In this document: positions 198 to 16,917 of the stretch, in pieces | Position numbering within the stretch: the first letter of the stretch is position 1 | Layout: each line of letters begins with the position of its first letter | Source: a virus | Reading direction: 5' to 3' (one strand) | Length of the DNA stretch: 20,159 nucleotides | Virus record (IMG/VR): IMGVR_UViG_3300035698_000302 | Span: 1 to 20,159 of that record | Notes under the pieces: model-generated | Told to the model about the DNA's origin: nothing | The model's input: the letters and a program-made list of their open reading frames with translations, nothing else | Databases searched by the model: none | Position numbers and translations under genes: made by a program

Positions 198-2903
198 TTA
201 TCCTTTTATAAATAGATATTCATTTGCCGTTGAAGTTGCTACAAGTCTAGCGCTAGTCAATCCCTCGCATTTTAGGTTGTTAGCATTTCCGTTAGGAATT
301 GTCGTTATAGTTACACCCGATGGATGTGTAAGATTTATATTAAAAAGTGCGCTACTGAAATTCCAAGACTGATTTATTCCTAAACCTAACGGTACGATAA
401 CAGTTAATTCTCCATTAGTTTTTATTGAGTGCAAATTGTAATCACTATCTAATAAAGTATAATTAGCATCTAAATAGGTAAAATTTTCTTGTATGGTACC
501 TACAAAACTTGAAGCGGTTACATTACCCCCAAAAGTGGCGTTGCCTGATTTAAAGTCGTGGTTTCCGCTTGAATCAATAGTATATCTAGCCGTATCACTT
601 GTTGCTAATGAAGTTGAGTGTGCTGTTTGAGTACCAATAACAAATTTATCTCTAAACGCAGTATTACCAGTTGAAGAACCCCCAGTTCCGATAATCCCAA
701 CAGCATCCGTATGGTTACCCCTTATTCTTAAAGCATTGTAACTTGTTGCAGCGGTGCCTGTTTGAAATAACTCAAAACTATAAACGGAACTTGTTTGATT
801 AATTAATACACTACCCCCAAAAGTGGCGTTTCCTGTTTTTCCATCAATATTAAAAACGTTAGTAGGTGTTGTTCCGTCTTTATTTATTACTACGTAATAA
901 TCCCCTCCTAAACCAGTACCACCAAAGTCATAGCCTTCAATTACTTGGTAAGTAGTTGAAGAAGTTGAATTAGAACCTGAAAGTATTATCCTTTGATTTG
1001 AGGAACCCGAATAAATTCTCGAATCATCTAAAATTACATTTCCCCCAAACGTGGCATTGCCTGACTTAAAGTCGAAATCTCCGTTTGCTTTGATACGCAT
1101 TCTTTCTGTTGGTGCCGTTGCATTTTGTCTTGTATAAAAACCTAACGCACAAGCCGTATTATTATCCGTAGCGTTTTCTTTAAACCCTTTTATTCCACCG
1201 TAAAAAGCTAAATCATCATTACCTGTCGCGTACTTACCTAGAAAAGATATTTCTCCTCCAACTCCTTCTGCCATATTTGCCGAATCTCCTGCAAGGAAAT
1301 TAGATGTAGCAAAGTTTGCAGTAGTAGCTATAAAAGACTGTATTCTTGAATTTCCATAACCAGACGTACGACCTACTGTTAAAGCACCCCCAAACGTAGC
1401 ATCCCCTGTAAAACTTGGTGAAGCCTTATTTGCTTTTAAATCTAAGGCGGTTTGTTGTGCAGAACTTACAGGCATATTTGTCAAAGCAGAACCGTCTCCT
1501 ATAAAATTACTAGCTCTTAAGTTACCTTGAAAGTAATTATCTGTAATACTTGAATTTCCTAAAGTAACTGTATTAGAACCGTTTCCGATAGCGTTAACTC
1601 CGATTACAATTTGGTTTGTTTCTCCGTCTGCGTTTGCCCTAGTATCTCTACCTATAAAAATAGATTCTGAACCTGTTTCGTTTGAAGTATTTCCGTCTGC
1701 TATATATCTACCCGATTGAAGACCTAAAGCTACGTTGGAACCTCCCGTTGTGTTATTTTGTAAACTTAGGTAGCCTAAAGCTACATTGTAACTTCCCGTT
1801 GTATTTTCATATAAATTTAGGTAACCTAAAGCTACGTTGGAATTTCCCGTTGTGTTATTTTGTAAACTTTGGAAACCTAAAGCTACGTTTCTATTTCCCG
1901 TTGTATTATTTTGTAAATTTAGGAAACCTAAAGCTACGTTTCCACTTCCAGTTGTATTATTTTGTAAACTTAGGTAGCCTAAAGCTGCGTTGGAACTTCC
2001 CGTTGTGTTATTTTCTCCAACACTACTACCTATAAAAGTATTATTTAAGGCATCACTTAAATCAAGTCTATTATTTATTGTAACAAGACCCGCAAAATTG
2101 GCATTTCCTGTAAAACTTGGTGAAGCCTTATTAGCTTTTAAGTCTAAAGCGGTTTGTTGTGCCGTTGAAATCGGTTTATTTGCATCCGTTGTATTATCTA
2201 CATTAGACAATCCTACATCTGCTTTAGCTAAAACAACCTCTCCAATCTTACCAGCTACGCTTAAAACTTTATCTGTGTTATCTATTTTAGCCCAACCGCT
2301 AGCAGTTTTTATAGCCCAATCGTTTACTTTCCAATCAGTAATCCCTCCAATATCTGTAGCACCCTCAACCGAAACAATCCAAAAATAACCTGTTTCAGTT
2401 GCTGTTGTAATGTCAGGCGTATTTGTGTCTGCATCCCAATTCCCTTGAGGTATTAAAGAACCTGCTAAGGCTAGTATTTCTGCTTTTAGTATCTTTCCTT
2501 GCTCTGCTGATAAAGGAACGCTTACACCTCCCGAAGTTACGTTGTCTACAATGCTCGCAATATCTACTTTTAAATCAATGTTAGATTGTAAAGTAGTATC
2601 TGCGGTTGTTCTTGCGGTTGCCTCTGTGTTTATGTTATTTTGTAAAGTTGTTTCTAATCCGTCTAATTGCGTAAGATTAACGGCATCATTAGCAGACAAA
2701 CCATTAGCAATTTTAAAAATCTCGCTACTGTTTCCGCTTATATCGGCTTTTAACGACAAGTCTGTAGCATTTAAAGCAATATTATCAACGTTGATATTAA
2801 CGCTTGTTTTTATCTCGTTTAAGTTTGCTGCAGTAACCTTATTTACTTCGGGTACTGGCTGACTTATTATATTTACTTTATCGTTATACTGTATCTTTGC
2901 CAT
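198..2903 (-). CDS. Tail fibre protein with YadA-head-like 17-aa repeats
   Basis: This 901-aa protein is the likely host-recognition fibre at the tail tip. The N-terminal region (about 1-60) is of the kind that attaches Bacteroidota phage fibres to the tail, followed by a heptad-like stretch. Residues about 293-394 hold six 17-aa repeats of the type NNTTGSxNVALGxxxLQ, which resemble the left-handed beta-roll repeats of trimeric autotransporter heads. Two copies of LDLKANKASPSFTG and several FKSGNATFGG-type modules surround them; these look like trimeric beta-rich shaft segments. The C-terminal part (about 805-901) appears to be a distinct tip domain. There is no chaperone-type peptidase motif that I can see. 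Its start shares one base with the stop of the upstream gene (TAATG), so translation is coupled. Receptor and trimeric state are inferred. Confidence 0.85.
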   Translation of the reverse strand: MAKIQYNDKVNIISQPVPEVNKVTAANLNEIKTSVNINVDNIALNATDLSLKADISGNSSEIFKIANGLSANDAVNLTQLDGLETTLQNNINTEATARTTADTTLQSNIDLKVDIASIVDNVTSGGVSVPLSAEQGKILKAEILALAGSLIPQGNWDADTNTPDITTATETGYFWIVSVEGATDIGGITDWKVNDWAIKTASGWAKIDNTDKVLSVAGKIGEVVLAKADVGLSNVDNTTDANKPISTAQQTALDLKANKASPSFTGNANFAGLVTINNRLDLSDALNNTFIGSSVGENNTTGSSNAALGYLSLQNNTTGSGNVALGFLNLQNNTTGNRNVALGFQSLQNNTTGNSNVALGYLNLYENTTGSYNVALGYLSLQNNTTGGSNVALGLQSGRYIADGNTSNETGSESIFIGRDTRANADGETNQIVIGVNAIGNGSNTVTLGNSSITDNYFQGNLRASNFIGDGSALTNMPVSSAQQTALDLKANKASPSFTGDATFGGALTVGRTSGYGNSRIQSFIATTANFATSNFLAGDSANMAEGVGGEISFLGKYATGNDDLAFYGGIKGFKENATDNNTACALGFYTRQNATAPTERMRIKANGDFDFKSGNATFGGNVILDDSRIYSGSSNQRIILSGSNSTSSTTYQVIEGYDFGGTGLGGDYYVVINKDGTTPTNVFNIDGKTGNATFGGSVLINQTSSVYSFELFQTGTAATSYNALRIRGNHTDAVGIIGTGGSSTGNTAFRDKFVIGTQTAHSTSLATSDTARYTIDSSGNHDFKSGNATFGGNVTASSFVGTIQENFTYLDANYTLLDSDYNLHSIKTNGELTVIVPLGLGINQSWNFSSALFNINLTHPSGVTITTIPNGNANNLKCEGLTSARLVATSTANEYLFIKG
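1405..1460 (-). repeat. 56-bp dispersed repeat in the fibre gene (partner at 2107-2162)
   Basis: Positions 1405-1460 and 2107-2162 match at 53 of 56 bases in the same orientation and frame. Both encode the module around LDLKANKASPSFTG, which flanks the 51-bp repeat block on both sides. Recombination between the copies would excise or duplicate the whole repeat block in frame. Confidence 0.9.
1723..2028 (-). repeat. Six tandem 51-bp repeats inside the fibre gene
   Basis: The plus-strand landmark CCTAAAGC recurs at 1723, 1774, 1825, 1876, 1927 and 1978, an exact 51-base period giving six in-frame units (CCTAAAGC to CCTAAAGC; the last unit, 1978, reads CCTAAAGCTGCG). Each unit encodes 17 residues. 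The units differ by a few bases, so they are not a recent simple expansion. Copy-number change would lengthen or shorten the fibre without breaking the frame. Confidence 0.95.
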
Positions 2904-3367
2904 TATATTAAAGTTTCTAAGTGAGATTCTAGCCCCGAATCTATTGGGTTAATGTTTGTGCTAACTGGTATACCGTAGCCTAAAATAGTAGCACTAAAAG
3001 TTATGAATTCATCTATATTACTTTCAGAAGATAAATCTGTTAAATAGCCTTTTCCGTTGTCAATATTGCCTTGATTGTCTTGTATTTTCCAATCTATTAA
3101 AAGTCTGTTTCTCTTAATTAATTTAAGAATATCGTAAGAAAATTTAGTAGTATCTCCGCCATTATAAAGGGTATTTAAAGCAACACCGCTAAAGTCTATG
3201 CTATATTCTTGGTTGGTTAATACGTAAGTTTTCCAACCGCCATTCTCTATATTTGTAGAATCTAAAGTTTCTACACTTTCAGAAAATCCGTTAGAGGTAA
3301 GGCATCCAATAGGTAAGAAGCCCTCGCCAATATCTAAGTAAAGTATACTATAAGTTCCGTTTATCAT
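2903..3367 (-). CDS. Second tail-tube-like protein (paralogue of the major tail protein)
   Basis: The protein has about 154 residues from the ATG at 3367. An in-frame TTG at 3373 would add two residues, but it lies only two bases from a TATATTTG box. It aligns along most of its length with the major tail tube protein at 8442-8876: ILYLDIGEGFLPIGCLTSN matches ILSIWDGSAYLPVGCLTSN, both have an internal DWK, and both end with DEF-T-S-T-L patterns. That places it in the TP901-1-type tail tube family. Its position between the baseplate-like gene and the fibre suggests a tube-fold adaptor joining fibre or tip to the tail (Dit-like role), or a minor tube subunit; this is inference. It ends in TAATG overlap with the fibre gene. 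Confidence 0.75.
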   Translation of the reverse strand: MINGTYSILYLDIGEGFLPIGCLTSNGFSESVETLDSTNIENGGWKTYVLTNQEYSIDFSGVALNTLYNGGDTTKFSYDILKLIKRNRLLIDWKIQDNQGNIDNGKGYLTDLSSESNIDEFITFSATILGYGIPVSTNINPIDSGLESHLETLI

Positions 3368-3375
3368 ATCCAATA

Positions 3376-3383
3376 CAAATATA
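3376..3383 (-). promoter_or_regulatory. Candidate -7 promoter box (TATATTTG)
   Basis: TATATTTG matches the Bacteroidota -7 consensus TAnnTTTG and lies in the 49-bp gap before the tube paralogue. No TTTG -33 box is visible at the usual distance, and the start codon follows so closely (ATG at 3367) that the transcript would be leaderless or nearly so. It may be chance in AT-rich DNA. Confidence 0.4.
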
Positions 3384-3422
3384 GATAAAACGTATCGTAA
3401 AGTTTAAATAAATATACTGAAA

Positions 3423-5543
3423 TTATCCACGAATAGTTGGCTCTACAACGTTGCCATAATCTAAAGTAAATTGATAATCTACATCTTCTAAGATGTCCGT
3501 ATCTAAAACTTCTACGTAGGTTATAGACGTTACGTTAGACAAACAATCATAGCTATACGAAGTAACCATAAAAACACCGTTAAAATTGCTAATAGTAGCA
3601 AGGTTTAAATAATCAAAATATCCGAAAATATCACCGCTATAGACTTGCAATGGTTTACCATACATTTTCATACGCTCCTCTCCCATTATTTTTAGAATTG
3701 GTTTTTTTTCTTCGACCCCTAATCTATTCCAATTCTCTGTGGGTGTAAATTGGTCTAACTCGTATATTGTACCATAATAGGTATCCGTAGGATTATCTCC
3801 GTTAAAAACTTGTTTTATATCCTTAATTTTTGAAGATGGTCTTAGTAACCTTTGAAATGTATGGTTTTCTCCTATTGCCTCAAGTTCCGCAGATAATGGA
3901 ACGACATCAATAACAAACCTAACATAAACTTCGCCAGTCTCATTAAGATAGTTAGGATATGTATTTACCTGTGGTATAAGTACACTTAAATCTCCGTTTA
4001 TAGGTGTTGCGCTTGTACTTGCTAAAAAACTACCATTTACTTGCAAAGGCATTTTAGCCAAAGTCGTAACCCATTCACTACCGTTAAAATAATATGTTTC
4101 TGCACCATTAGTAATTTTTAAAACTACATCAGAACTAAAACCCTCATTATTTAAAAAGTTACAACTTGTATTTACGGTAAGCTTTAACCTACTACTTGTA
4201 GGTACTATCTTAGTAGTACTTTGAAACCCACCATCGCTTCCAGATAGTGTAAAAGGGTCTATAAGTATTAAACTATCAACCAATCCATACTTGTAATTTA
4301 TACGAAAAGCACCTATAGAACTTTTAACTGTCTTTTGTTGGTTGGCGTTTACGTGGTGTGGGTAATAACCGTTTATCTGACTACCTAAAGTAACTCTAAA
4401 ATCAAAATTCTTTTTAGGTATTAATAAATTATCTCCGCTAAAGTCGTACCCGAAAAAAGACGGTATTGTAGCAGTTACTAAAGAGTTCGGTTTATATATT
4501 AGCCATTGCCCTTTATAAGCCGTAATAACCGCACCAAAAGGCTCTAAAACACTTCTTAGAACTTCGTCACAATTCATTATTGTATCTTTATCGTCTTTCA
4601 CAAACCGATCCGAGTTATAGTAAACATTCTCAAAAATAGAAAGGTCATTTCGTAAACCCTCGTAGTAAATATCTATACCAACAAATATGTTTGAGTTTAT
4701 TTTAGTCCTTTTTAGGCAGTTAGAAACTATTTTAATTAGGCTTTGCTTACCTACAAAACTAAGACCGTTAGCATCTTCTACGTAAGATAAGTTTTTAAGG
4801 AATCCAAGACCGTCTGTACAGTCTAAAGAAATTACCCATTTATCAGTTACTAGGCTTTCATAAATACCCTCTGGGCTTAACCAACCATTAAATAACGTTG
4901 TATTAGTTCCTAAAGCATCTCTTTTATAGGTTACTGAATAAGTGCGCTCCTCTTCGCTATAAAGGTCGTAGAATGTTAAATTAGAATCCGCTTGTAAGTC
5001 TATTTTTAAACCCGAACCTCTTATTGGTTCTAACGTGTCGTCTGTTTCTGAATATTCTAAACTACAACTTCCGTAGATTTTCGTAGGCTCTCCATCAAAT
5101 TCTGCGCTTAATATTTCCACTCTATGCCTAACATCTACAACATCGTTAAATTCAAAATAGTACTTTAAGTTTTGTATAGGTAAAGGTGCAGGAACAGGAT
5201 CACTTAAAACATAAGTTACTTTACCGCTAGATATAGCCGTTCCGCTTACTGCGTGAAAAGTTACGGTTGTATCTGTCGATGTTAAATTTAAAACACTACC
5301 TGTTTTAGTGATGGTTAAACCACCTTTAAAGATGTCAGCATTATAATCGAATCTAAATCTATTAGCGTAATTAATAGCAAGTATTTCTGTAGATTCATTT
5401 ATTCCTGGATGAAAGGCTCTAGCATTTTCAGGCTCTACAAATGTTTCTATTAAATCACCATTAACACCCCCTACGCTATAAGTAACTATAATACTGTTAT
5501 TTAGCTGCAAACTGCTAATAAAACTTAATTGTAATTTTTTCAT
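3423..5543 (-). CDS. Large tail tip / baseplate protein
   Basis: This 706-aa protein follows the tape measure gene by three bases, the position where siphoviruses encode distal-tail, hub or tail-associated proteins. Its sequence is beta-rich, with no signal peptide or membrane segment. The N-terminal third is rich in short beta-strand and Thr/Ser stretches. A central segment (about 320-355) with CDEVLRSVLEPFGAVITAYK and QWLIYKP resembles baseplate-type proteins of Bacteroidota phages. The C-terminal part (about 600-690) contains YSGDIFGYFDYLNLATISNF and a run of hydrophobic/Tyr strands that look like the final hub domain. I cannot name a precise family from sequence alone. A role at the tail tip holding the fibre is inferred from order. 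No peptidoglycan hydrolase motif is evident. Confidence 0.65.
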   Translation of the reverse strand: MKKLQLSFISSLQLNNSIIVTYSVGGVNGDLIETFVEPENARAFHPGINESTEILAINYANRFRFDYNADIFKGGLTITKTGSVLNLTSTDTTVTFHAVSGTAISSGKVTYVLSDPVPAPLPIQNLKYYFEFNDVVDVRHRVEILSAEFDGEPTKIYGSCSLEYSETDDTLEPIRGSGLKIDLQADSNLTFYDLYSEEERTYSVTYKRDALGTNTTLFNGWLSPEGIYESLVTDKWVISLDCTDGLGFLKNLSYVEDANGLSFVGKQSLIKIVSNCLKRTKINSNIFVGIDIYYEGLRNDLSIFENVYYNSDRFVKDDKDTIMNCDEVLRSVLEPFGAVITAYKGQWLIYKPNSLVTATIPSFFGYDFSGDNLLIPKKNFDFRVTLGSQINGYYPHHVNANQQKTVKSSIGAFRINYKYGLVDSLILIDPFTLSGSDGGFQSTTKIVPTSSRLKLTVNTSCNFLNNEGFSSDVVLKITNGAETYYFNGSEWVTTLAKMPLQVNGSFLASTSATPINGDLSVLIPQVNTYPNYLNETGEVYVRFVIDVVPLSAELEAIGENHTFQRLLRPSSKIKDIKQVFNGDNPTDTYYGTIYELDQFTPTENWNRLGVEEKKPILKIMGEERMKMYGKPLQVYSGDIFGYFDYLNLATISNFNGVFMVTSYSYDCLSNVTSITYVEVLDTDILEDVDYQFTLDYGNVVEPTIRG

Positions 5544-7756: not shown

Positions 7757-8442
7757 CTATTTTTTATTATATTGTTTTTGAGCCTTTAAAATAGCATTCC
7801 TATGAACATCGCTTAGACCTTTTGCGTTACTTTCACCGTCTAAAGGAATAAACTTATCTTTAGATTTAGGTAACTTCTTAGGGTCAATATGAGAACCTAT
7901 TAATGAAGCGTAAGCCATCTCACGAACCTTATACCATTCGTTTTTTTCTATTCGTCTGTGAGCGTGTTGCCTAATACAAAACTCCGCCCACGTCATATCG
8001 TAAACGTAAGACAAAGACGGAGTATTTAGTTCTCCTAAAGCGAAAGAAATTATATCACTTGCCCAGTCTAATTCTTTGGGTTCGCTCTCTTCTTTCCCGA
8101 CGTTGGAATTTTATTTTTTGCTACTGGTACGTCTTTTGTCATACTGTTACTAAACGCATCTAAAAACAAACTAACGCCGTCAGAAGCTACACCGCCAACA
8201 CTATCTAATAAGTCTATAAAATCATACAGTTTTAACGCAACTTCTTTGCCTTCTCTCTCAAGATTATAAGCATAAGAAGTATACATTAATTTAGGAATGA
8301 CCTTAAAAGGATTATTTTTAATATTCGCATCCAATTCATCAATAGAACAGTCTAAACTATCCAATAACTCACCTAAAAAACCCAGTCCGAAATGAAAACC
8401 CAGTTCTTTACCCTCAAAATTTAGCTTTATTTTATTTGTCAT
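7757..8442 (-). CDS. Tail assembly chaperone, long form (gpG-gpT-type, -1 frameshift product)
   Basis: Ribosomes slipping -1 at GGGAAAG (8098-8092) leave the short chaperone frame after codon 117 and read 111 more codons to the stop at 7757, giving a fusion of 228 aa. The extension begins EESEPKELDWASDIISFALG and ends with KAQKQYNKK. The second frame is open continuously from the slip site. Its only early start-like codon is a TTG at 8014, so it is better read as the frameshift extension than as an independent gene. In lambda the equivalent gpG and gpGT bind the tape measure and recruit tube protein; neither is in the virion. The gene order tube, chaperone, tape measure is the same here. Confidence 0.88.
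8068..8442 (-). CDS. Tail assembly chaperone, short form (gpG-like)
   Basis: This is the zero-frame product, 124 aa, soluble and acidic in its first half with a Lys/Arg-rich tail (KKRANPKN). Residues 1-30 (IKLNFEGKELGFHFGLGFLG) and the helical middle fit tail assembly chaperones found between the tube and tape measure genes of siphoviruses. Its start overlaps the tube gene stop by one base (TAATG). The slip site lies at codons 115-117, so only seven residues after it are unique to the short form. Confidence 0.85.
   Translation of the reverse strand: MTNKIKLNFEGKELGFHFGLGFLGELLDSLDCSIDELDANIKNNPFKVIPKLMYTSYAYNLEREGKEVALKLYDFIDLLDSVGGVASDGVSLFLDAFSNSMTKDVPVAKNKIPTSGKKRANPKN
8092..8098 (-). other. 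-1 ribosomal frameshift site GGGAAAG
   Basis: On the minus strand the heptamer is phased G GGA AAG in the zero frame (GGA codon at 8097-8095, AAG at 8094-8092), the canonical X XXY YYZ arrangement. It is the same heptamer used in phage lambda G/T. Re-pairing gives GGG AAA, and the -1 frame then stays open for 111 codons into the chaperone extension. I see no obvious strong stimulatory hairpin immediately downstream. Confidence 0.9.
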
Positions 8443-8876
8443 TATGCGTTAGGATCTACAGTTACAATTAAACCGCTATTTTGTAGCGTTCCGCTATAAG
8501 TAGCAAATTCGTCACCAGCAGCAGCAGAAATCTCTAAGTCAGCCAAAACCGCAGAGCCATAGTAAGCTACAGGCGCATCTTGGTCGCTTGTCATTTTCCA
8601 ATCTTGTGTAGTTCCTTGCGCAACGTTTATAAAATCTAAAAGTGCGTTAAAGTCTGTTTTTGTTGCATCTGTTTTAATATAAGTTGCTTCGAAAGAAACT
8701 TCTGAACTTGTCGAACCCGCTTGTCTAATAATCTGACTAGGTGCGCATTTAGTCTGTGCTTCAATTACGTTTCTTGTAACGCTTAAAGAGTTTGAGGTTA
8801 AACAACCTACTGGTAAATAAGCTGAACCATCCCAGATAGATAGAATAACGGCATCGCCTTTAATAAAAGTACTCAT
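8442..8876 (-). CDS. Major tail tube protein
   Basis: The 144-aa product has the length and composition of TP901-1-type major tail proteins. Landmarks are LPVGCLTSNSLSV near residue 21, a central DWKM, and a beta-rich C-terminal half (YYGSAVLADLEISAAAGDEF). It polymerises as rings around the tape measure to form the tail tube. Its position just before the chaperone pair agrees. It has its own promoter region (8903-8967 plus the -7 box), with about 26 bases of leader before the ATG, as expected for an abundant structural protein. A diverged paralogue lies at 2903-3367. Confidence 0.88.
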   Translation of the reverse strand: MSTFIKGDAVILSIWDGSAYLPVGCLTSNSLSVTRNVIEAQTKCAPSQIIRQAGSTSSEVSFEATYIKTDATKTDFNALLDFINVAQGTTQDWKMTSDQDAPVAYYGSAVLADLEISAAAGDEFATYSGTLQNSGLIVTVDPNA

Positions 8877-8902: not shown

Positions 8903-8967
8903 CAAAGATAAATATAATTTATACCAAATGCGATATTAATAACTATAATTTATACCCATTGCGATAC
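8903..8967 (-). promoter_or_regulatory. 65-bp late-gene promoter/operator element, copy B (tail operon)
   Basis: Reading the minus strand, the element begins GTATCG at 8967 and ends in the -7 box TATCTTTG (8910-8903). TATCGC occurs at 8966-8961 and again at 8935-8930, exactly 31 bp apart, each followed by GGTATAAATTATA. A degenerate third unit overlaps the -7 box and runs past it. The whole element matches 13654-13718 at 56 of 65 bases with no gap. No TTTG lies at the standard -33 distance; a TTTG lies only 14 bases above the -7 box. The arrangement suggests an activator or repressor binding two sites on one face of the helix. Confidence 0.8.
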
Positions 8968-8979
8968 TATGAAATAAGT

Positions 8980-9009
8980 TTTGTATTGTGGTGGTTTTTA
9001 CTATATTTG
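8980..9009 (+). promoter_or_regulatory. Consensus Bacteroidota promoter for the plus-strand gene
   Basis: TTTG at 8980-8983 and TATATTTG at 9002-9009 are separated by 18 bases, matching the -33/-7 promoter architecture (TTTG, TAnnTTTG) known for Bacteroidota primary sigma factor. Transcription would start near 9013-9016, which leaves a short leader before ATG 9029. It lies only 13 bases from the 65-bp element that drives the opposite strand, so the two divergent promoters share one regulatory region. Confidence 0.85.
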
Positions 9010-9028
9010 CTTAAAAAGGATAAAAACG

Positions 9029-9391
9029 ATGAAAGCAAACGAATTAAGGATTGGAAACTATTTAACAGACACTAAAAACATCTTAATAGTTAAATCACTG
9101 ACTAAAGAAAATGTTTATTGTGATATTTATAAATTTAAAGAAACCCCACTATCTAAAATTGAAACTATACCATTAACAGAAGATTGGTTGTTGAAGTTTG
9201 GGTTTACTTGGGATTTAAAGAAAGTGTATTTATGTAGGAATGAAATAGCATACAGAATTAGATATGTTAGAAATTCATTAATATTAATTCAAGGAAAACA
9301 ATGTATAACTATTCCTAATTTAAAACACGTACACCAATTACAAAACCTATACTTCACACTTATAGGTAATGAATTAATTTTAACACAATAA
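9029..9391 (+). CDS. Small phage protein of unknown function, antisense to the structural operon
   Basis: The 120-aa protein begins MKANELRIGNYL and ends KHVHQLQNLYFTLIGNELIL. Both signatures recur in uncharacterised proteins of Bacteroidota phages and mobile elements, as does the middle IPLTEDWLLKFGFTW. A TTG at 8981 extends the frame upstream, but that codon lies in the -33 region of the promoter, so the ATG at 9029 is the credible start; AGGA precedes it by eight bases. No catalytic motif, signal or membrane segment is visible. It is the only plus-strand gene, wedged between tail terminator and tail tube, which fits an independently expressed accessory (moron-like) gene or an early gene. 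No plus-direction terminator is apparent. Confidence 0.8.
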   Translation: MKANELRIGNYLTDTKNILIVKSLTKENVYCDIYKFKETPLSKIETIPLTEDWLLKFGFTWDLKKVYLCRNEIAYRIRYVRNSLILIQGKQCITIPNLKHVHQLQNLYFTLIGNELILTQ

Positions 9392-9406
9392 AACTACTGC
9401 ATAAAT

Positions 9407-9434
9407 AAAAAACCTCACTAAATTAATAGTGAGG
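9407..9434 (-). terminator. Rho-independent terminator after the neck operon
   Basis: An 8-bp perfect stem CCTCACTA/TAGTGAGG with a 6-base loop lies at 9413-9434. In the minus direction it is followed by six T (9412-9407) and then more T-rich sequence. It sits 54 bases after the tail terminator stop codon, so it ends the neck-gene transcript. On the plus strand the stem is followed by A, not T, so it does not obviously stop the plus-strand gene. Confidence 0.8.
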
Positions 9435-9487
9435 AAAAAAAAGCTAAAAAAGAAAAAACATACTTCGAGGAAAAGTATAGGGTTAAG

Positions 9488-9922
9488 TTAGTTAATGGTT
9501 AATTCTAAACGCATTAACTTTCTAAATATATTCTCGTTTTCCGTAATGGTAACAATATCATTAGGAAAATCTTGTATTTGTTTCTGTACTACTAATCCAC
9601 TATCTACGTCTAAAACTAAGTTATTTGTAGCATTTCGTACTGCATCTATTATGTTTTCAGATAATAAACGGCTACCAGTGTTTCCGCTACCATCATACGT
9701 AGTTACAACGTCTATTAAAATAGAACTTTGCCAAACATCACCGCATTTAGTCATTTGGTCTACTTGGCTCGTTTGTGTTGTCATTAGTATAAAGTGTTGC
9801 GGTATTGTGTTGCCTGAAACCCTACTATCAAACGCGGGTATGGTCAACGTATCAACCACCAAATTATTAACGGCACTAAAGACCGCTTTGCGTATGTATT
9901 TGTCTGGTAATTGCTTAATCAT
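9488..9922 (-). CDS. Tail terminator / tail completion protein
   Basis: The 144-aa protein occupies the last place of the neck cluster, after the gp10-like gene, with an 8-base overlap (9915-9922). Its pattern of a short N-terminal helix (IRKAVFSAV), a PQHFILMTTQT strand, a VWQSSILIDVVTTYDG strand and a final alternating strand (NIFRKLMRLELTI) fits the small alpha/beta tail terminator fold (gpU or DUF3168-type). Such proteins cap the tail tube and make the joint to the head. Family membership is inferred from order, size and strand pattern, not from a diagnostic motif. Confidence 0.68.
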   Translation of the reverse strand: MIKQLPDKYIRKAVFSAVNNLVVDTLTIPAFDSRVSGNTIPQHFILMTTQTSQVDQMTKCGDVWQSSILIDVVTTYDGSGNTGSRLLSENIIDAVRNATNNLVLDVDSGLVVQKQIQDFPNDIVTITENENIFRKLMRLELTIN

Positions 9923-10346
9923 ATTTATTTGTTAATGTTTTTAGTAGGTGTTTTAAATCCTTTAAATATTGTGTTCTCCCTTTTACAAAAGCTGGGTATA
10001 AATACGGTCTAGGTTGTAAATTAATTTGTTTAACGCCTGCACCCTTAAACTGTATTGCAATCTCTTTTAATTCTGCTGGCACTTGCACCATTTTACCAGT
10101 TCCAAATTCTACATAAGCACCGTAAGGAGCGTGTACAACTACCTTGTAATCAGCCTCTTCTACTTTAGTATAAATTATACTTTGGGCTAACTTACCGTAA
10201 TCTTTAGGTGCAAAAGCCTTCGCATCTGCAACAATATCCATAGAAACCGCCTTTGTAACTATTTCAACTCCTTTATCAGCTTCTTTCCCGAACTTCTCTA
10301 AGTCTTTTAACACCTTAACTAGCCCTTTTACGCTCTTATCTGACAT
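9915..10346 (-). CDS. HK97 gp10-like tail completion / neck protein
   Basis: The 143-aa protein shows the signature of the HK97 gp10 family: an N-terminal helical region with VSMDIVADAKAFAPKDYGKL (about 49-68), then YGAYVEFGTGKM (about 88-99), and a late PRPYLYPAF segment (about 122-130). AFAPKDYGKL followed by VEFGTG is the hallmark. It joins head and tail. Its start overlaps the stop of the adaptor gene by one base (TAATG). Confidence 0.92.
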   Translation of the reverse strand: MSDKSVKGLVKVLKDLEKFGKEADKGVEIVTKAVSMDIVADAKAFAPKDYGKLAQSIIYTKVEEADYKVVVHAPYGAYVEFGTGKMVQVPAELKEIAIQFKGAGVKQINLQPRPYLYPAFVKGRTQYLKDLKHLLKTLTNKYD

Positions 10347-10708
10347 TATATCGGCTCTATTTGCGTAACACTCCTTAACTCCTCTTTAGTTGCTATAATC
10401 TCTATAATGTCATCTCTAAAACTAACGTTAAAAGGTTGATTTTTTATAATGTATTTAAACCCTCTGTATTTTAAATATTGATTTAAACCATTGTAAGTAA
10501 TATCGTTTCTTTTACGAAATCTTACTTTAATTGTGTTTGTTGCGCTGGTAATTCCTATATCCGTGCTTCTATTTACATCGTTAAGCGTTATAATTTCAGC
10601 CCACGAAGACGTTATTAAAGTTTCTGCTACAGTATTACCGCCAAAACCATCCGATACATTAGACGTTTGCCATATTTCTATACGTTTGCTTAACTTTCTG
10701 CTTCTCAT
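10346..10708 (-). CDS. Head-tail adaptor (phage head-tail joining protein)
   Basis: This 120-aa protein belongs to the SPP1 gp16 / HK97 adaptor type. Residues 7-35 (SKRIEIWQT, DGFGGNTVAETLITSSWAEI) are the typical opening of the family, with short beta-strands and a Gly-rich turn. KVRFRKRNDITYNGLNQYLK and YIIKNQPF continue the small barrel. It sits between the connector and gp10-like genes and shares one base (TAATG) with both neighbours, so the neck genes are translationally coupled. Confidence 0.9.
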   Translation of the reverse strand: MRSRKLSKRIEIWQTSNVSDGFGGNTVAETLITSSWAEIITLNDVNRSTDIGITSATNTIKVRFRKRNDITYNGLNQYLKYRGFKYIIKNQPFNVSFRDDIIEIIATKEELRSVTQIEPI

Positions 10709-11178
10709 TAGATAAAAAATCTTGTGTAATTGCCTAAAATCATTTTAGATAACTCCGATAAATCTGCTTTTATACTTTTGCCTGTTTCGGGCGAATAATA
10801 CATTAAGTCTATCATTTCGTAAGCAACCTCAATTAAATCACTTGGTACGTTTATAGTATCAGCATAACCAACGTTTAAAACCACATTTAAATCCGTGCTT
10901 AACGTTGTTGTGTAAGTTGTATAAATAGAACGCTCCACACTTGTAGCCGTTGTCGGTGTTGTTAGGCTATTAATTGGATAGTCATATACATTTACAATAG
11001 AATTATCTACGACATAGCTTTTAGAACGTGCAAACAGAATATAATTAGTAACCCTTTCAATTTGCGAAAGCGAAGCCTTAATCATTCGAGTAATTTGCGC
11101 ATCGTCTTCTGTTAACGTGTCGTCAATTCTAAGGTATGTTTTAGCATCTGCTAACGTTATGATATCTAAATATGCCAT
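10708..11178 (-). CDS. Head-tail connector protein (gp6-like)
   Basis: The 156-aa protein starts IITLADAKTYLRIDDTLTED, the characteristic opening of HK97 gp6-like connectors, followed by helix DAQITRMIKASLSQIERVTN and a beta-rich middle. The last part (SDLIEVAYEMIDLMYY) is the second helical pair. It forms the ring under the portal. It begins inside the stop of the 56-aa gene (TAATG at 11178). Confidence 0.9.
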   Translation of the reverse strand: MAYLDIITLADAKTYLRIDDTLTEDDAQITRMIKASLSQIERVTNYILFARSKSYVVDNSIVNVYDYPINSLTTPTTATSVERSIYTTYTTTLSTDLNVVLNVGYADTINVPSDLIEVAYEMIDLMYYSPETGKSIKADLSELSKMILGNYTRFFI

Positions 11179-11348
11179 TACTTTGTTTTAATCGTTCTTT
11201 TGCGCTCTTTTGTTGCTTTTACTATTAACTCCGCTACGCCCTCGCTTATTAGTCTTTTGTTGTCTTTATCTCCAAAGTCTGCTACATCTCCTATTTTATA
11301 AGATTTTTGCTCACTTAACTTAAAAATATCCTTTATTATTTTAATCAT
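11178..11348 (-). CDS. Small neck-cluster protein, 56 aa
   Basis: The ORF runs from ATG 11348 to TAA 11180-11178. The peptide contains KSYKIGDVADFGDKDNKRLI then SEGVAELI and a Lys-rich end. A KxGDVxxFxxxxxxRLIxxGxAE pattern is common in small proteins that lie between capsid and connector genes of tailed phages; their role is not settled. It has a TATATTTG promoter box 48 bases above its start, below a terminator, so it opens the neck-gene transcript. The TAATG overlap with the connector argues strongly for translation. Confidence 0.8.
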   Translation of the reverse strand: MIKIIKDIFKLSEQKSYKIGDVADFGDKDNKRLISEGVAELIVKATKERKRTIKTK

Positions 11349-11395
11349 TTTAATGTTTTTATCTCGTAATTACGTGCGTATTACGATATATTACT

Positions 11396-11403
11396 CAAAT
11401 ATA
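11396..11403 (-). promoter_or_regulatory. Promoter -7 box (TATATTTG) for the neck operon
   Basis: TATATTTG lies between the lipoprotein terminator and the 56-aa gene, leaving a leader of roughly 40 bases. TATCGTA overlaps it and recurs as TATCGTAA about 20 bases downstream, recalling the TATCG cores of the 65-bp elements, but GGTATAAATT is absent. No clear TTTG at -33 is seen; this may be a weak or activator-dependent promoter. Confidence 0.5.
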
Positions 11404-11424
11404 CGATATAAAAAAACCAAGTGT

Positions 11425-11454
11425 AAAAAAAACCCTATCAAATTAATGACAGGG
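11425..11454 (-). terminator. Rho-independent terminator after the lipoprotein gene
   Basis: Minus-strand RNA can form the 8-bp stem CCCUGUCA/UGAUAGGG (11454-11433) with a 6-base loop, followed by eight U (11432-11425). One pair is G-U on this strand but would be an A-C mismatch on the plus strand, which points to the minus direction. It starts 24 bases after the lipoprotein stop codon. Confidence 0.9.
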
Positions 11455-11477
11455 CTTTAATAGGTGTGTAAAGTTGG

Positions 11478-11777
11478 TTAGTTGTATATTGATAAATCAC
11501 AAAGAGTTTGACCTAAACGAAAGTTATCTATAGTGTATTCTGAATTAGTAACACAAATAAGTAAACCTCTTGCGTCTCGAGTACCGAAAAGGTCAGCACG
11601 AACTACGGTTATACTCAATCTCGTTTCACATTGAGGATTACCACTATTAGCTGAAATAATACGCCAGCAATCGCTTACAGGGTTCTCTACCTCTATTTCT
11701 TCTAACTCTGTAATATAAGTATTTTCCGTGCAACCAATTAGCGTAATAAATCCAATAATAAACAGTAACTTTTTCAT
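11478..11777 (-). CDS. Small predicted lipoprotein (moron-like)
   Basis: The 99-aa product begins with a lipoprotein signal: MKK, a hydrophobic core (LLFIIGFITLI) and lipobox LIGC, so Cys16 should become the lipidated first residue. The mature part is about 84 residues, with further Cys in SDCWRII, PQCETRL, LLICVTN and TLCDLSI that could form disulfides outside the inner membrane. The gene is inserted between capsid and neck genes and bracketed by terminators on both sides, so it can be expressed on its own. A TATATTTA box just above it is one base from consensus and overlaps the end of the capsid terminator. Phage lipoproteins of this size sometimes block superinfection at the envelope; that role here is only a hypothesis. 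Confidence 0.8.
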   Translation of the reverse strand: MKKLLFIIGFITLIGCTENTYITELEEIEVENPVSDCWRIISANSGNPQCETRLSITVVRADLFGTRDARGLLICVTNSEYTIDNFRLGQTLCDLSIYN

Positions 11778-11799
11778 ATCTTTTTTATGTAAATATATG

Positions 11800-11834
11800 A
11801 AAAAAAAGCCCTAACGATTTAACGAAAGGGCTTT
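11800..11834 (-). terminator. Rho-independent terminator after the capsid gene
   Basis: An 8-bp stem AAAGCCCT/AGGGCTTT (11834-11827 with 11812-11805) encloses a 14-base loop and continues on the minus strand into eight T (11807-11800). It lies 22 bases past the capsid stop codon. It separates the highly expressed capsid transcript from the lipoprotein gene. Confidence 0.9.
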
Positions 11835-11855
11835 CTTACTATATTACTATTCTAC

Positions 11856-12971
11856 TTATGCAGTAGCCGTAAAATCTCCGTAAATCAACGCTAAAGGCTG
11901 CTCTACTGCTAAAGCCGTTTGGCTCTCTATTCTTGCGGTAATATTGTTCTTAACAAAGTTAGTCCCTTCAACATCAGAAAACTCTAAAGAAAGTCCTTCT
12001 GTGTTAATCTTGTTAACTCTTGACCAATCTCCTACATAGTACTTGTTAGCACCTACCCAAGTAGCTTTTAACAACTGAATACCATTTACTCTTAATACTG
12101 CACCTTCGTAAGATACGATAGCAGCTAAGTCATCTTTAGGAGTTTTTAAAATACTGTAGTAATCAGAAGGTCTTACAACTATTCCAGTTACATCGTAATC
12201 TGTATCTTCTAATTTAGAGATTTCATTTACTAACATCTCTACCTTAGTCTTTCCTGTGATAATTTCAGACGAAGCAGTTGCATCAGAAGCTAAAATAGCA
12301 TTAAATGCAGCGTTTTCAGCCTTAAAGTAATCTCTTCTTAATAAATCTGGAATTGCAGAAGCGATATAAGAAAGGTTGTTTCTCATTTTCTTAGAATACC
12401 TTGCGAAACCAGCGATAAAGTCAGTTGCAACGTCTACAGTAGCAAAGTCATAATCTTTTGCGTTCTTACTTGCTCCTTCTGTTTGCGCTCCAATAGAACC
12501 CTCTGAACCTGTTTCTTTGGTATAGGTATAAGTACCGCCATCAATGTTTACAGAACCTACTAAGTCAGATACATTTACTTTCTGCGAAGGAAAAGCAACA
12601 ATATCATAATTATAACTTCTTGGCTCATCTCCTGTTAAGTTAGCCGTAGACATATCTCCTACTGCTTTAACTTGTACTTTTTGGTTACTTAATCCTTTGA
12701 TTTCGTTACCACTTTCCATAATTGCAGACTTAATATTGTCTACGTTTTTAACTTCACTCTTCATTTTTGCCTGTAATTTTACGTCTAATTTATCTGCGTG
12801 GTCTTGTACTTTTTTCAATTCTAACGCAAACTCTTCTTTGATTGCTTTAGTTTCTAAAGATAACGCTTCACTATGCTTTACTTCAAACGCTTCTATTGCG
12901 TTCTTTACTTCTGTTTGAGATTTGCCCTCTAATTTTAGAGTTAGCGCTTCTAATTGTTCTTTTAATTCCAT
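11856..12971 (-). CDS. Major capsid protein, HK97 family
   Basis: The 371-aa protein has the two-part layout of HK97 gp5-type capsids. An N-terminal delta (scaffold) domain of about 95 residues is highly charged and coiled-coil (LKEQLEALTLKLEGKSQTEV onward). The HK97-fold shell domain follows, with YNYDIVAFPSQKVNVSDLVG (E-loop/N-arm side), TVDVATDFIAGFARYSKKMR, and a P-domain/A-domain run including VVRPSDYYSILKTPKDDLAA and VGANKYYVGDWSRV. The adjacent prohead protease would remove the delta domain, probably near residues 95-105, just before the MSTANLTG segment; the site is inferred. It starts 3 bases after the protease stop and is followed by a strong terminator. Confidence 0.95.
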   Translation of the reverse strand: MELKEQLEALTLKLEGKSQTEVKNAIEAFEVKHSEALSLETKAIKEEFALELKKVQDHADKLDVKLQAKMKSEVKNVDNIKSAIMESGNEIKGLSNQKVQVKAVGDMSTANLTGDEPRSYNYDIVAFPSQKVNVSDLVGSVNIDGGTYTYTKETGSEGSIGAQTEGASKNAKDYDFATVDVATDFIAGFARYSKKMRNNLSYIASAIPDLLRRDYFKAENAAFNAILASDATASSEIITGKTKVEMLVNEISKLEDTDYDVTGIVVRPSDYYSILKTPKDDLAAIVSYEGAVLRVNGIQLLKATWVGANKYYVGDWSRVNKINTEGLSLEFSDVEGTNFVKNNITARIESQTALAVEQPLALIYGDFTATA

Positions 12972-12974
12972 TGT

Positions 12975-13646
12975 TTAATGTTTTAATGTTTGTATAAATT
13001 CACTTATTAACTTTGCATTCATCGGCTCAACGTTAGGAGTGTCAATAATCAACGGCTCTGTACTAGTAAGTGATTTTAGTAATGCTTCAATCTGTTTTAA
13101 TCTTGTATCTGAATAGTCCAAGTCATAAGACTTCTCTATTAGTTCTAGTATTCCGTAAGTACTTTTAATACTCTTTATATCTTGCACGGTGCTTAACTCA
13201 TTAGCTGCCCAACTAGATAAAAAAGAATACTCCATTAACTTATATTCTGTAATAATAGATTTATTCTTTACATCTCTTTGTATTACGTTATAACCAATAG
13301 ACAATTCAGCATTTAAGCCGTTTTCGTGCATTAATTTAACGTCTGTAAACATATCCCTACCCATCTCTTTATTCATATTGAATTGAGTAGTTGTAAGTAG
13401 CCCGTAAGAATCTTCGGTATCTATATTCAAGGGAACGCCTATCATATCTTTAGGGTTGTGGTCTTTTAACACCCTAATACGCTTGTAGTTTTCCTTTACT
13501 GTCTTAGTAAAAGAACCCATTGCAGAAATATCTTTGTCGGAATCTTCATTATTATAGGCATTTGCATACGCTTTAATAACTCCTTTTGTTTCGTCTAAGT
13601 CCTTTAGGTCGAAACTTATTTGCTTAAAATTCATTTGTTTGCTCAT
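12975..13646 (-). CDS. Prohead maturation protease, HK97 (gp4-type) family
   Basis: The 223-aa protein begins with KGVIKAYANAYNNEDSDKDI, the usual first strands of the family. The catalytic His lies in VLKDHNP (H63) and the Ser in GLNAELSIGY (S116), the two diagnostic positions of these herpesvirus-assemblin-like serine proteases. It cuts the capsid delta domain and itself during head maturation. ATG at 13646 lies only seven bases below the -7 box, so the message would be nearly leaderless; the second in-frame ATG at 13634 (MNFKQISF) would allow a leader of about 15 bases and is a real alternative start. Length is typical for the family. Confidence 0.93.
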   Translation of the reverse strand: MSKQMNFKQISFDLKDLDETKGVIKAYANAYNNEDSDKDISAMGSFTKTVKENYKRIRVLKDHNPKDMIGVPLNIDTEDSYGLLTTTQFNMNKEMGRDMFTDVKLMHENGLNAELSIGYNVIQRDVKNKSIITEYKLMEYSFLSSWAANELSTVQDIKSIKSTYGILELIEKSYDLDYSDTRLKQIEALLKSLTSTEPLIIDTPNVEPMNAKLISEFIQTLKH

Positions 13647-13653
13647 AATTACA

Positions 13654-13718
13654 CAAATATAAATAGAATTTATAGCAAATGCGATATTAATAAATAATAT
13701 TTATACCTTTTACGATAC
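13654..13718 (-). promoter_or_regulatory. 65-bp late-gene promoter/operator element, copy A (capsid operon)
   Basis: Minus-strand reading runs from GTATCG (13718) to the -7 box TATATTTG (13661-13654). TATCG cores start at 13717 and 13686, exactly 31 bp apart. The first is followed by AAAAGGTATAAAT, the second by CATTTGCTATAAATT. It aligns without gaps to 8903-8967 with 9 differences in 65. It precedes the prohead protease and capsid genes, the most heavily expressed head genes, as its twin precedes the tail tube gene. Confidence 0.8.
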
Positions 13719-16885: not shown

Positions 16886-16893
16886 CAAAAATA
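16886..16893 (-). promoter_or_regulatory. Candidate -7 promoter box (TATTTTTG) before the portal gene
   Basis: TATTTTTG fits TAnnTTTG and lies in the 58-base gap between terminase and portal. Shortly below it GTATAAATTATA followed by ACTATTA resembles the GGTATAAATTATAGTTATTA part of the 65-bp elements, but no TATCG core accompanies it. It may be a decayed or partial member of the same set. Confidence 0.4.
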
Positions 16894-16917
16894 ATCATTA
16901 AAATCTATAATGTTAAT

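Follow-up and report, generated by a model that had tools for sequence, protein, structure and literature searches.

Paired dyads beside the -7 box mark head and tail promoters of flavobacterial phages

The head and tail operons of a 20,159-base-pair (bp) virus contig from IMG/VR (IMGVR_UViG_3300035698_000302, positions 1 to 20,159; hereafter the window, meaning the whole stretch analysed) are preceded by a phage-specific late-promoter element. As we would define it, this module has three components: the -7 box itself (TAnnTTTG), a dyad of 15 bp that lies in the spacer and abuts the box or overlaps it, and, at a distance of 31 bp and mostly on the upstream side, a second dyad. Found in phages of marine flavobacteria, the paired sites are probably the binding platform of a phage switch protein that times the production of virus particles, because the hosts lack the 31-bp paired arrangement. 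The entire analysis rests on comparing sequences; beyond annotated records, genes were called as simple open reading frames, and many contigs are fragments.

The paired dyads and their geometry

A sequence-only reading of the window had singled out two 65-bp copies, at 13654-13718 and 8903-8967. They are identical at 56 of 65 positions without gaps, as had been claimed, and form the best pair of 65-mers in the window outside the tail-fibre gene. In 40 dinucleotide shuffles, the best 65-bp pair of each reached at most 42 matches (mean 39.6, standard deviation 0.9), so the similarity of the two copies is real and far above chance. The coordinates also bear out that each copy stands directly above a TAnnTTTG box and before the protease/capsid or the tail-tube operon: the boxes are TATATTTG (13661-13654) and TATCTTTG (8910-8903), followed after 7 nucleotides (nt) by the ATG of the protease (13646-12975) and after 26 nt by that of the tail tube (8876-8442). 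Within the copies, TATCG starts on the minus strand at 13717 and 13686 and at 8966 and 8935. The proposed 31-bp spacing is thus present in both copies. TATCG itself is rejected as the half-site: it sits in the linker and is retained only by the nearest relatives, whereas relatives in general keep the dyads and their spacing. A third, weaker twin lies further along the tail genes, and the portal promoter has a single weak dyad. The features are as follows, with dyad matches given out of 12 arm positions.

13654-13661, minus strand: -7 box TATATTTG of the protease/capsid operon, fitting the TAnnTTTG consensus, with the ATG (13646) 7 nt further on
13659-13673, minus strand: proximal dyad ATAAATTCTATTTAT, 12/12, overlapping the -7 box by 3 nt, at the same offset as in relatives
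13674-13689, minus strand: 16-bp linker TAATATCGCATTTGCT with one TATCG, which most relatives do not conserve
13690-13704, minus strand: distal dyad ATAAATATTATTTAT, 12/12, 31 bp upstream of the proximal dyad
13705-13718, minus strand: upstream linker copy GTATCGTAAAAGGT with the second TATCG, belonging to a 31-bp tandem repeat of the window phage
8903-8910, minus strand: -7 box TATCTTTG for the tail-tube operon, with the ATG (8876) 26 nt further on
8908-8922, minus strand: proximal dyad ATAAATTATATTTAT, 12/12
8923-8938, minus strand: 16-bp linker TAATATCGCATTTGGT
8939-8953, minus strand: distal dyad ATAAATTATAGTTAT, 11/12
8954-8967, minus strand: upstream linker copy GTATCGCAATGGGT
3376-3426, minus strand: third, weaker twin element upstream of the second tail-tube gene, with proximal dyad ATACGTTTTATCTAT (9/12), distal dyad ATAATTTCAGTATAT (9/12) and -7 box TATATTTG
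16886-16908, minus strand: portal promoter, with -7 box TATTTTTG and a single weak dyad ATAGATTTTAATGAT (9/12, offset -15) that has no partner

The conserved unit emerged from the DNA upstream of the protease and tube genes in relatives of the window phage, gathered by capsid (80) and by tail tube (35). The part that recurs is a 15-bp dyad, ATAAAT-N3-ATTTAT. It starts 12 nt upstream of TAnnTTTG, with a 3-nt overlap, or less often 15 nt upstream, where it abuts the box; its partner lies 31 bp upstream of it or, in some phages, 31 bp downstream. That the two sites lie about three helical turns apart, as first suggested for the window, is upheld by the conservation of the 31-bp spacing in many phages. 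The twin pattern has two matches in the window and none in 100 shuffles.

The same geometry appears when promoters are selected without regard to the dyad. For 41 non-redundant protease and tube promoters chosen by the position of the -7 box alone, with all offsets scored, the mean dyad match peaks at -12 (9.73/12) and at -43 (8.07/12); the overall mean is 4.95, with a standard deviation of 0.96 between offsets. A proximal match of at least 11/12 is found in 25 of the 41 (61%). In 16 of these 25, the site at exactly -31 scores 9/12 or better as a distal dyad; at any of ten other spacings, only two promoters reach 9/12. Among 433 non-redundant phage -7 boxes, strong dyads accumulate at -12 (24), -15 (10), -14 (6), -43 (9) and +16 (4), with no more than 2 per position elsewhere. 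When 130 bp upstream and 70 bp downstream of 47 strong proximal dyads were searched, a second dyad of at least 10/12 occurred at -31 in 15 cases, at +31 in 7, and once each at seven other spacings. The downstream partner is clearest in Cellulophaga phage phi10:1, before portal, protease and tube.

Transcripts of Flavobacterium johnsoniae start 4-5 nt past the -7 box (PMC6847099). With this rule, the proximal dyad would cover about -24 to -10 and the distal dyad about -55 to -41. An RNA hairpin formed by the dyads is unlikely because they precede the predicted start.

Almost no gap (4-8 nt) separates the -7 box from the ATG at window positions 13646 and ~3368, and at protease or second-tube starts in loci L051, L132, L157 and others. 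Messages of this kind should be leaderless or nearly so, given that short distance; most F. johnsoniae messages differ in not being leaderless (PMC6847099). Elsewhere in the window (11380-11410, minus strand), two TATCG lie 20 bp apart (TATCGTATATTTGAGTAATATATCGTAAT), upstream of a gene for a connector of 56 amino acids (aa) and beside a terminator-like run; this pair does not match the dyad module.

Distribution among phages and host genomes

The pattern ATARANNNNNNHTAT-N16-ATARATNNNNNTTAT-MTTTG, standing for the twin dyad and -7 box, was used to scan IMG/VR blindly; it returned 38 places in 36 viral stretches, and 36 of the 38 precede late genes. Judged by BLAST, position or reading, these are protease (14), tail tube (10), second tube (5), podovirus portal (5) and podovirus scaffold (2); the remaining two have no gene assignment. 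The pattern was derived from some of the scanned phages, so that matches within the same clade are not independent, while the podovirus matches are. When the gap could take any value from 1 to 31, the 31-bp spacing yielded 21 distinct sequences and each other spacing 0-3.

The genes of the podoviruses fall into PHROG families for portal, terminase and structural proteins, and their portal is 24-41% identical to those of elemo, phi38:1 and Pachyviridae phages. By these assignments, the module is common to siphovirus and podovirus lineages with head genes that are not detectably related. No twin element was present in the stretches read of the elemo, phi38:1, phi19:3 and Gundel phages.

Related phages may use other sites at the same late operons. 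A freshwater sister group (for example contig G007, locus L028) has a different palindrome of 23 bp, TTATTTA[GT]AAT-N-ATT[AC]TAAATAA, before the portal, protease, tube and second-tube genes, where it precedes the -7 box, in most cases by 5-6 bp. It occurs at 25 distinct promoters, compared with none in 400 kb of host DNA, and supports the idea of lineage-specific late regulators.

L028 contig (G007), 4533, 9781, 13742, 15913 and others: sister palindrome sites, also in the L010-L041 group

In addition, loci L156 (643-693) and L147 (9933-9983) have an identical 51-bp tube promoter, with tube proteins 44% and 69% identical to that of the window, which hints at recombination at the promoter.

In host chromosomes, the module is at chance level. 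The twin pattern has two matches in a genome collection (257 Gb by its description) and one in 300 Flavobacteriaceae genomes, the latter in the genome used to choose the family. A single dyad with a -7 box has five matches in 150 genomes, compared with three for the reversed control. A widespread host repeat, which the sequence-only reading had named among the findings that would refute its claim, is therefore rejected, and the description as a phage late-gene element stands, the arrangement being essentially absent from host chromosomes.

The late genes of the window lie on the minus strand, in the order small and large terminase, portal, Mu-F-like head protein, protease and capsid, followed by connectors, tail tube, tape measure, second tube and fibre. 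Four of them have family matches relevant here.

12975-13646, minus strand: prohead protease (Peptidase_S78)
11856-12971, minus strand: major capsid protein (Phage_capsid)
8442-8876, minus strand: tail tube protein (Phage_tail_2)
2903-3373, minus strand: second tail-tube-like protein (Phage_tail_2), whose first in-frame ATG is a 154-aa start ~8 nt past the -7 box

The window capsid is 59% identical to that of Flavobacterium phage 11b and 51% to that of phi10:1. Relatives of a window gene of PHROG 10066 (function not known; 8981-9391, plus strand), which lies inside the tail operon and is divergent from the tube promoter, are also present in phi10:1. The same phage is found on a 51-kb contig (G001, locus L003), where 18,232 bases are identical to the window and where an integrase and a CI-type helix-turn-helix (HTH) protein are present. 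This contig (51,285 bp; L083 2212-16714 and L085) has two late regions, in that portal, capsid and tape measure occur a second time, and at its fibre end the window matches the fibre of the other late region at 98% identity; the contig is either a chimeric assembly or tandem prophages. No prophage relatives of the window capsid were confirmed in bacterial genomes. Other repeats in the window are a tandem array of six copies of a 51-bp repeat within the tail-fibre gene (1665-2065) and, at the contig end, a perfect direct repeat of 28 bp (1-28 and 138-165).

Proposed regulator and mode of action

Most likely, dimers encoded by the phage bind the module in pairs. The proximal arms co-vary, as in ATAACT-AAT-AGTTAT and ATAAAT-TTT-ATTTAT, which suggests a symmetric dimer. 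In the mechanism that we propose, the late promoters would be read by the host primary RNA polymerase holoenzyme, and phage-encoded homodimers would occupy both dyads cooperatively, on one DNA face and three helical turns apart. The dimer beside the -7 box would then, at a late stage of infection, turn on the operons for head and tail. We consider the chances of such an activator evenly balanced; it is favoured because the sites occur only at late operons, their register to the -7 box is narrow (two or three values), and there is no -33 box.

The last of these arguments needs care. TTG is absent 17-23 nt upstream of the -7 box in both window copies, which agrees with the stated lack of a standard -33 box, and at this place it occurs in 2 of 40 phage promoters (3.3 when shuffled), with TTG anywhere 12-26 nt upstream in 11 of 40. 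Host boxes have it in 13 of 69 cases (19%), compared with 11% when shuffled. At F. johnsoniae start sites a -33 motif is hardly evident, and AT-rich motifs near -18 and -28 are stronger (PMC6847099). The missing -33 box is thus not distinctive of the module, because flavobacterial promoters rarely show one, and the further claim that the element replaces the -33 contact is not established.

Several points weigh against a phage dimer acting as an activator. A weak -33 region is normal in this phylum. The distal site (ATAAAW...YTAT) is less symmetric than the proximal one, and the arm covariation (complementary in 208 of 240 pairs from 40 promoters, compared with 185.5, standard deviation 3.2, when right arms were re-dealt, with 208 never reached in 5,000 trials) is inflated by phage relatedness and drawn in small part from promoters with a different register. 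In seven promoters, of which three belong to phi10:1, the partner is 31 bp downstream, a position that a classical activator does not use. Across most non-structural proteins of phi10:1, DnaA_C was the one transcription-factor-like DNA-binding domain recognised, and a DnaA_C protein is not supported as a universal regulator, as a 35-kb element-bearing contig (G026) and the podovirus contigs examined are without it.

The domain scan of phi10:1 comprised 54 proteins, each of at most 330 aa, and listed 25 of the 32 families matched. Among the families listed there was no Ogr_Delta zinc finger (the early genes of other phages were partly scanned) and no integrase or CI-type domain. The DnaA_C protein is present in the 51-kb contig, in phi10:1 and in three or four others, and in contig G030 it stands among replication genes; a viral scan with the DnaA-like protein of the window returned the same phage only. 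The 67-aa HTH protein, proposed alongside the DnaA-like protein as a candidate binder, fares no better: it has one marginal relative, and relatives were not found in most element-bearing contigs. A 54-aa protein encoded before the small terminase is confined to a close clade. No protein is common to all siphovirus and podovirus carriers examined, the shared ones being tail-fibre, nuclease-like and unassigned proteins. A host factor as the binder is unlikely, though possible, because host sites are absent and related podoviruses of similar hosts are without the module in the stretches read.

An activator would be the first choice, and a repressor its serious rival, to which we assign a minority but appreciable probability. 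The dyads would then be operators: a proximal dimer would lie across the spacer and onto the edge of the -7 box, thereby blocking RNA polymerase, a second dimer 31 bp upstream or downstream would stabilise it, as in lambdoid or gal-type operators, and late genes would stay off until its removal. The overlapping or abutting position of the proximal dyad fits this well, as do the partners on either side (at -31 or +31 in 15 and 7 of 47 promoters), a fixed dyad-dyad spacing combined with two registers to the -7 box 3 bp apart, and the integrase and CI-type HTH protein on the 51-kb contig. However, neither domain was recognised in phi10:1 among the families listed in the scan described above, repression does not need a tight offset to the -7 box, and lysogeny repressors act at early promoters. 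In the 51-kb contig, strong dyads near -7 boxes stand solely before protease and tube, and in the early region, which holds the CI-type gene, no -7 box is directly accompanied by one.

The possibility that there is no dedicated regulator, and that the module is an ordinary flavobacterial promoter in a strong form, with AT-rich upstream motifs that are symmetric by accident, is improbable. It draws on the AT-rich motifs near -18 and -28 of F. johnsoniae, which are more pronounced than -33 (PMC6847099), and host -7 boxes do score slightly above background at the proximal place (mean 6.3 vs 4.7). Yet a strong dyad occurs at 1.4% of 69 host -7 boxes (400 kb of an Aurantibacter chromosome), compared with 25 of 41 phage late promoters, so a generic host feature is rejected as the full explanation. 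The arrangement is also at chance in 150-300 host genomes, and an ordinary promoter predicts neither an exact 31-bp partner nor co-varying arms. Marginally less probable again is a phage-encoded sigma factor or RNA-polymerase-binding protein that reads the dyad and box as an altered core promoter: the rigid position of the dyad relative to the -7 box, the restriction to late operons and the presence of the module in a podovirus lineage would suit it, but the host-type -7 box is always kept (in part by how promoters were selected), no sigma-like protein was recognised in partial scans of phage proteins, and a repeated palindrome 31 bp away is unlike usual sigma recognition.

Returning to the phage dimer, a broader picture can be offered tentatively, and in its full form we regard it as doubtful: in a late-gene switch of a new kind, a horizontally shared phage dimer would occupy the core spacer of a -7 promoter of Bacteroidota and cooperate with a second one placed three helical turns to either side, in unrelated siphovirus and podovirus lineages, while sister phages would have switched to the 23-bp palindrome.

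Comparison with known systems

Phages of Bacteroidota occur abundantly in both marine and gut environments, and the sigma factor of their hosts is an unusual one. The module provides a signature by which late operons can be searched for from sequence alone, as the 36 of 38 blind places illustrate, and a concrete handle on the regulator and on late-gene timing in these phages. The cultured and sequenced carrier phi10:1 makes it testable. No late-promoter control site defined for Bacteroidota phages was found in the open-access literature, and the closest parallels come from other systems.

The Bacteroidota primary-sigma promoter (TTTG at -33, TAnnTTTG at -7) shares with the module a -7 box near the ATG and AT-rich DNA upstream. 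The phage module adds a fixed 15-bp dyad and a partner 31 bp away, and has TTG at the -33 place in only 2 of 40 promoters, although hosts too show this feature weakly.

Late promoters of P2 and P4, served by Ogr and delta, have no good -35 box and instead carry a dyad for a phage activator, the Ogr site being TGT-N12-ACA near -55. Both groups are thus phage late promoters that lack a good upstream box and are marked by a dyad. They differ in that the dyads described here are ATAAAT-N3-ATTTAT at about -17 and -48, that neither 65-bp window copy contains TGT-N12-ACA by reading, and that no Ogr-like protein was seen among the families listed for phi10:1.

Mu C (at mom) and MerR-type activators act as dimers at poor promoters, on a dyad that lies in or close to the spacer, and the module likewise has a spacer dyad immediately before the -7 box (offset -12 or -15). 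Unlike them, it has no -33 box at a long spacing and has a second, phased dyad; no MerR or C homologue was seen.

In lambdoid OR and OL, several regularly spaced dyads lie over a promoter and are bound by cooperative dimers, with a spacing of ~24 bp and at early promoters. The module resembles these arrays in having several dyads regularly spaced over one promoter (31 bp, upstream or downstream). It differs in the spacing of 31, the late promoters and the tight -7 register, and in having, on the 51-kb contig, no strong dyad at a -7 box of the early region with the CI-type gene.

Finally, the SPBRE of SPbeta and the stoperators of mycobacteriophages are repeated short control sites scattered over a prophage. 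The module is also a repeated short phage control site, but rather than being dispersed it stands once at each of two to four late operons.

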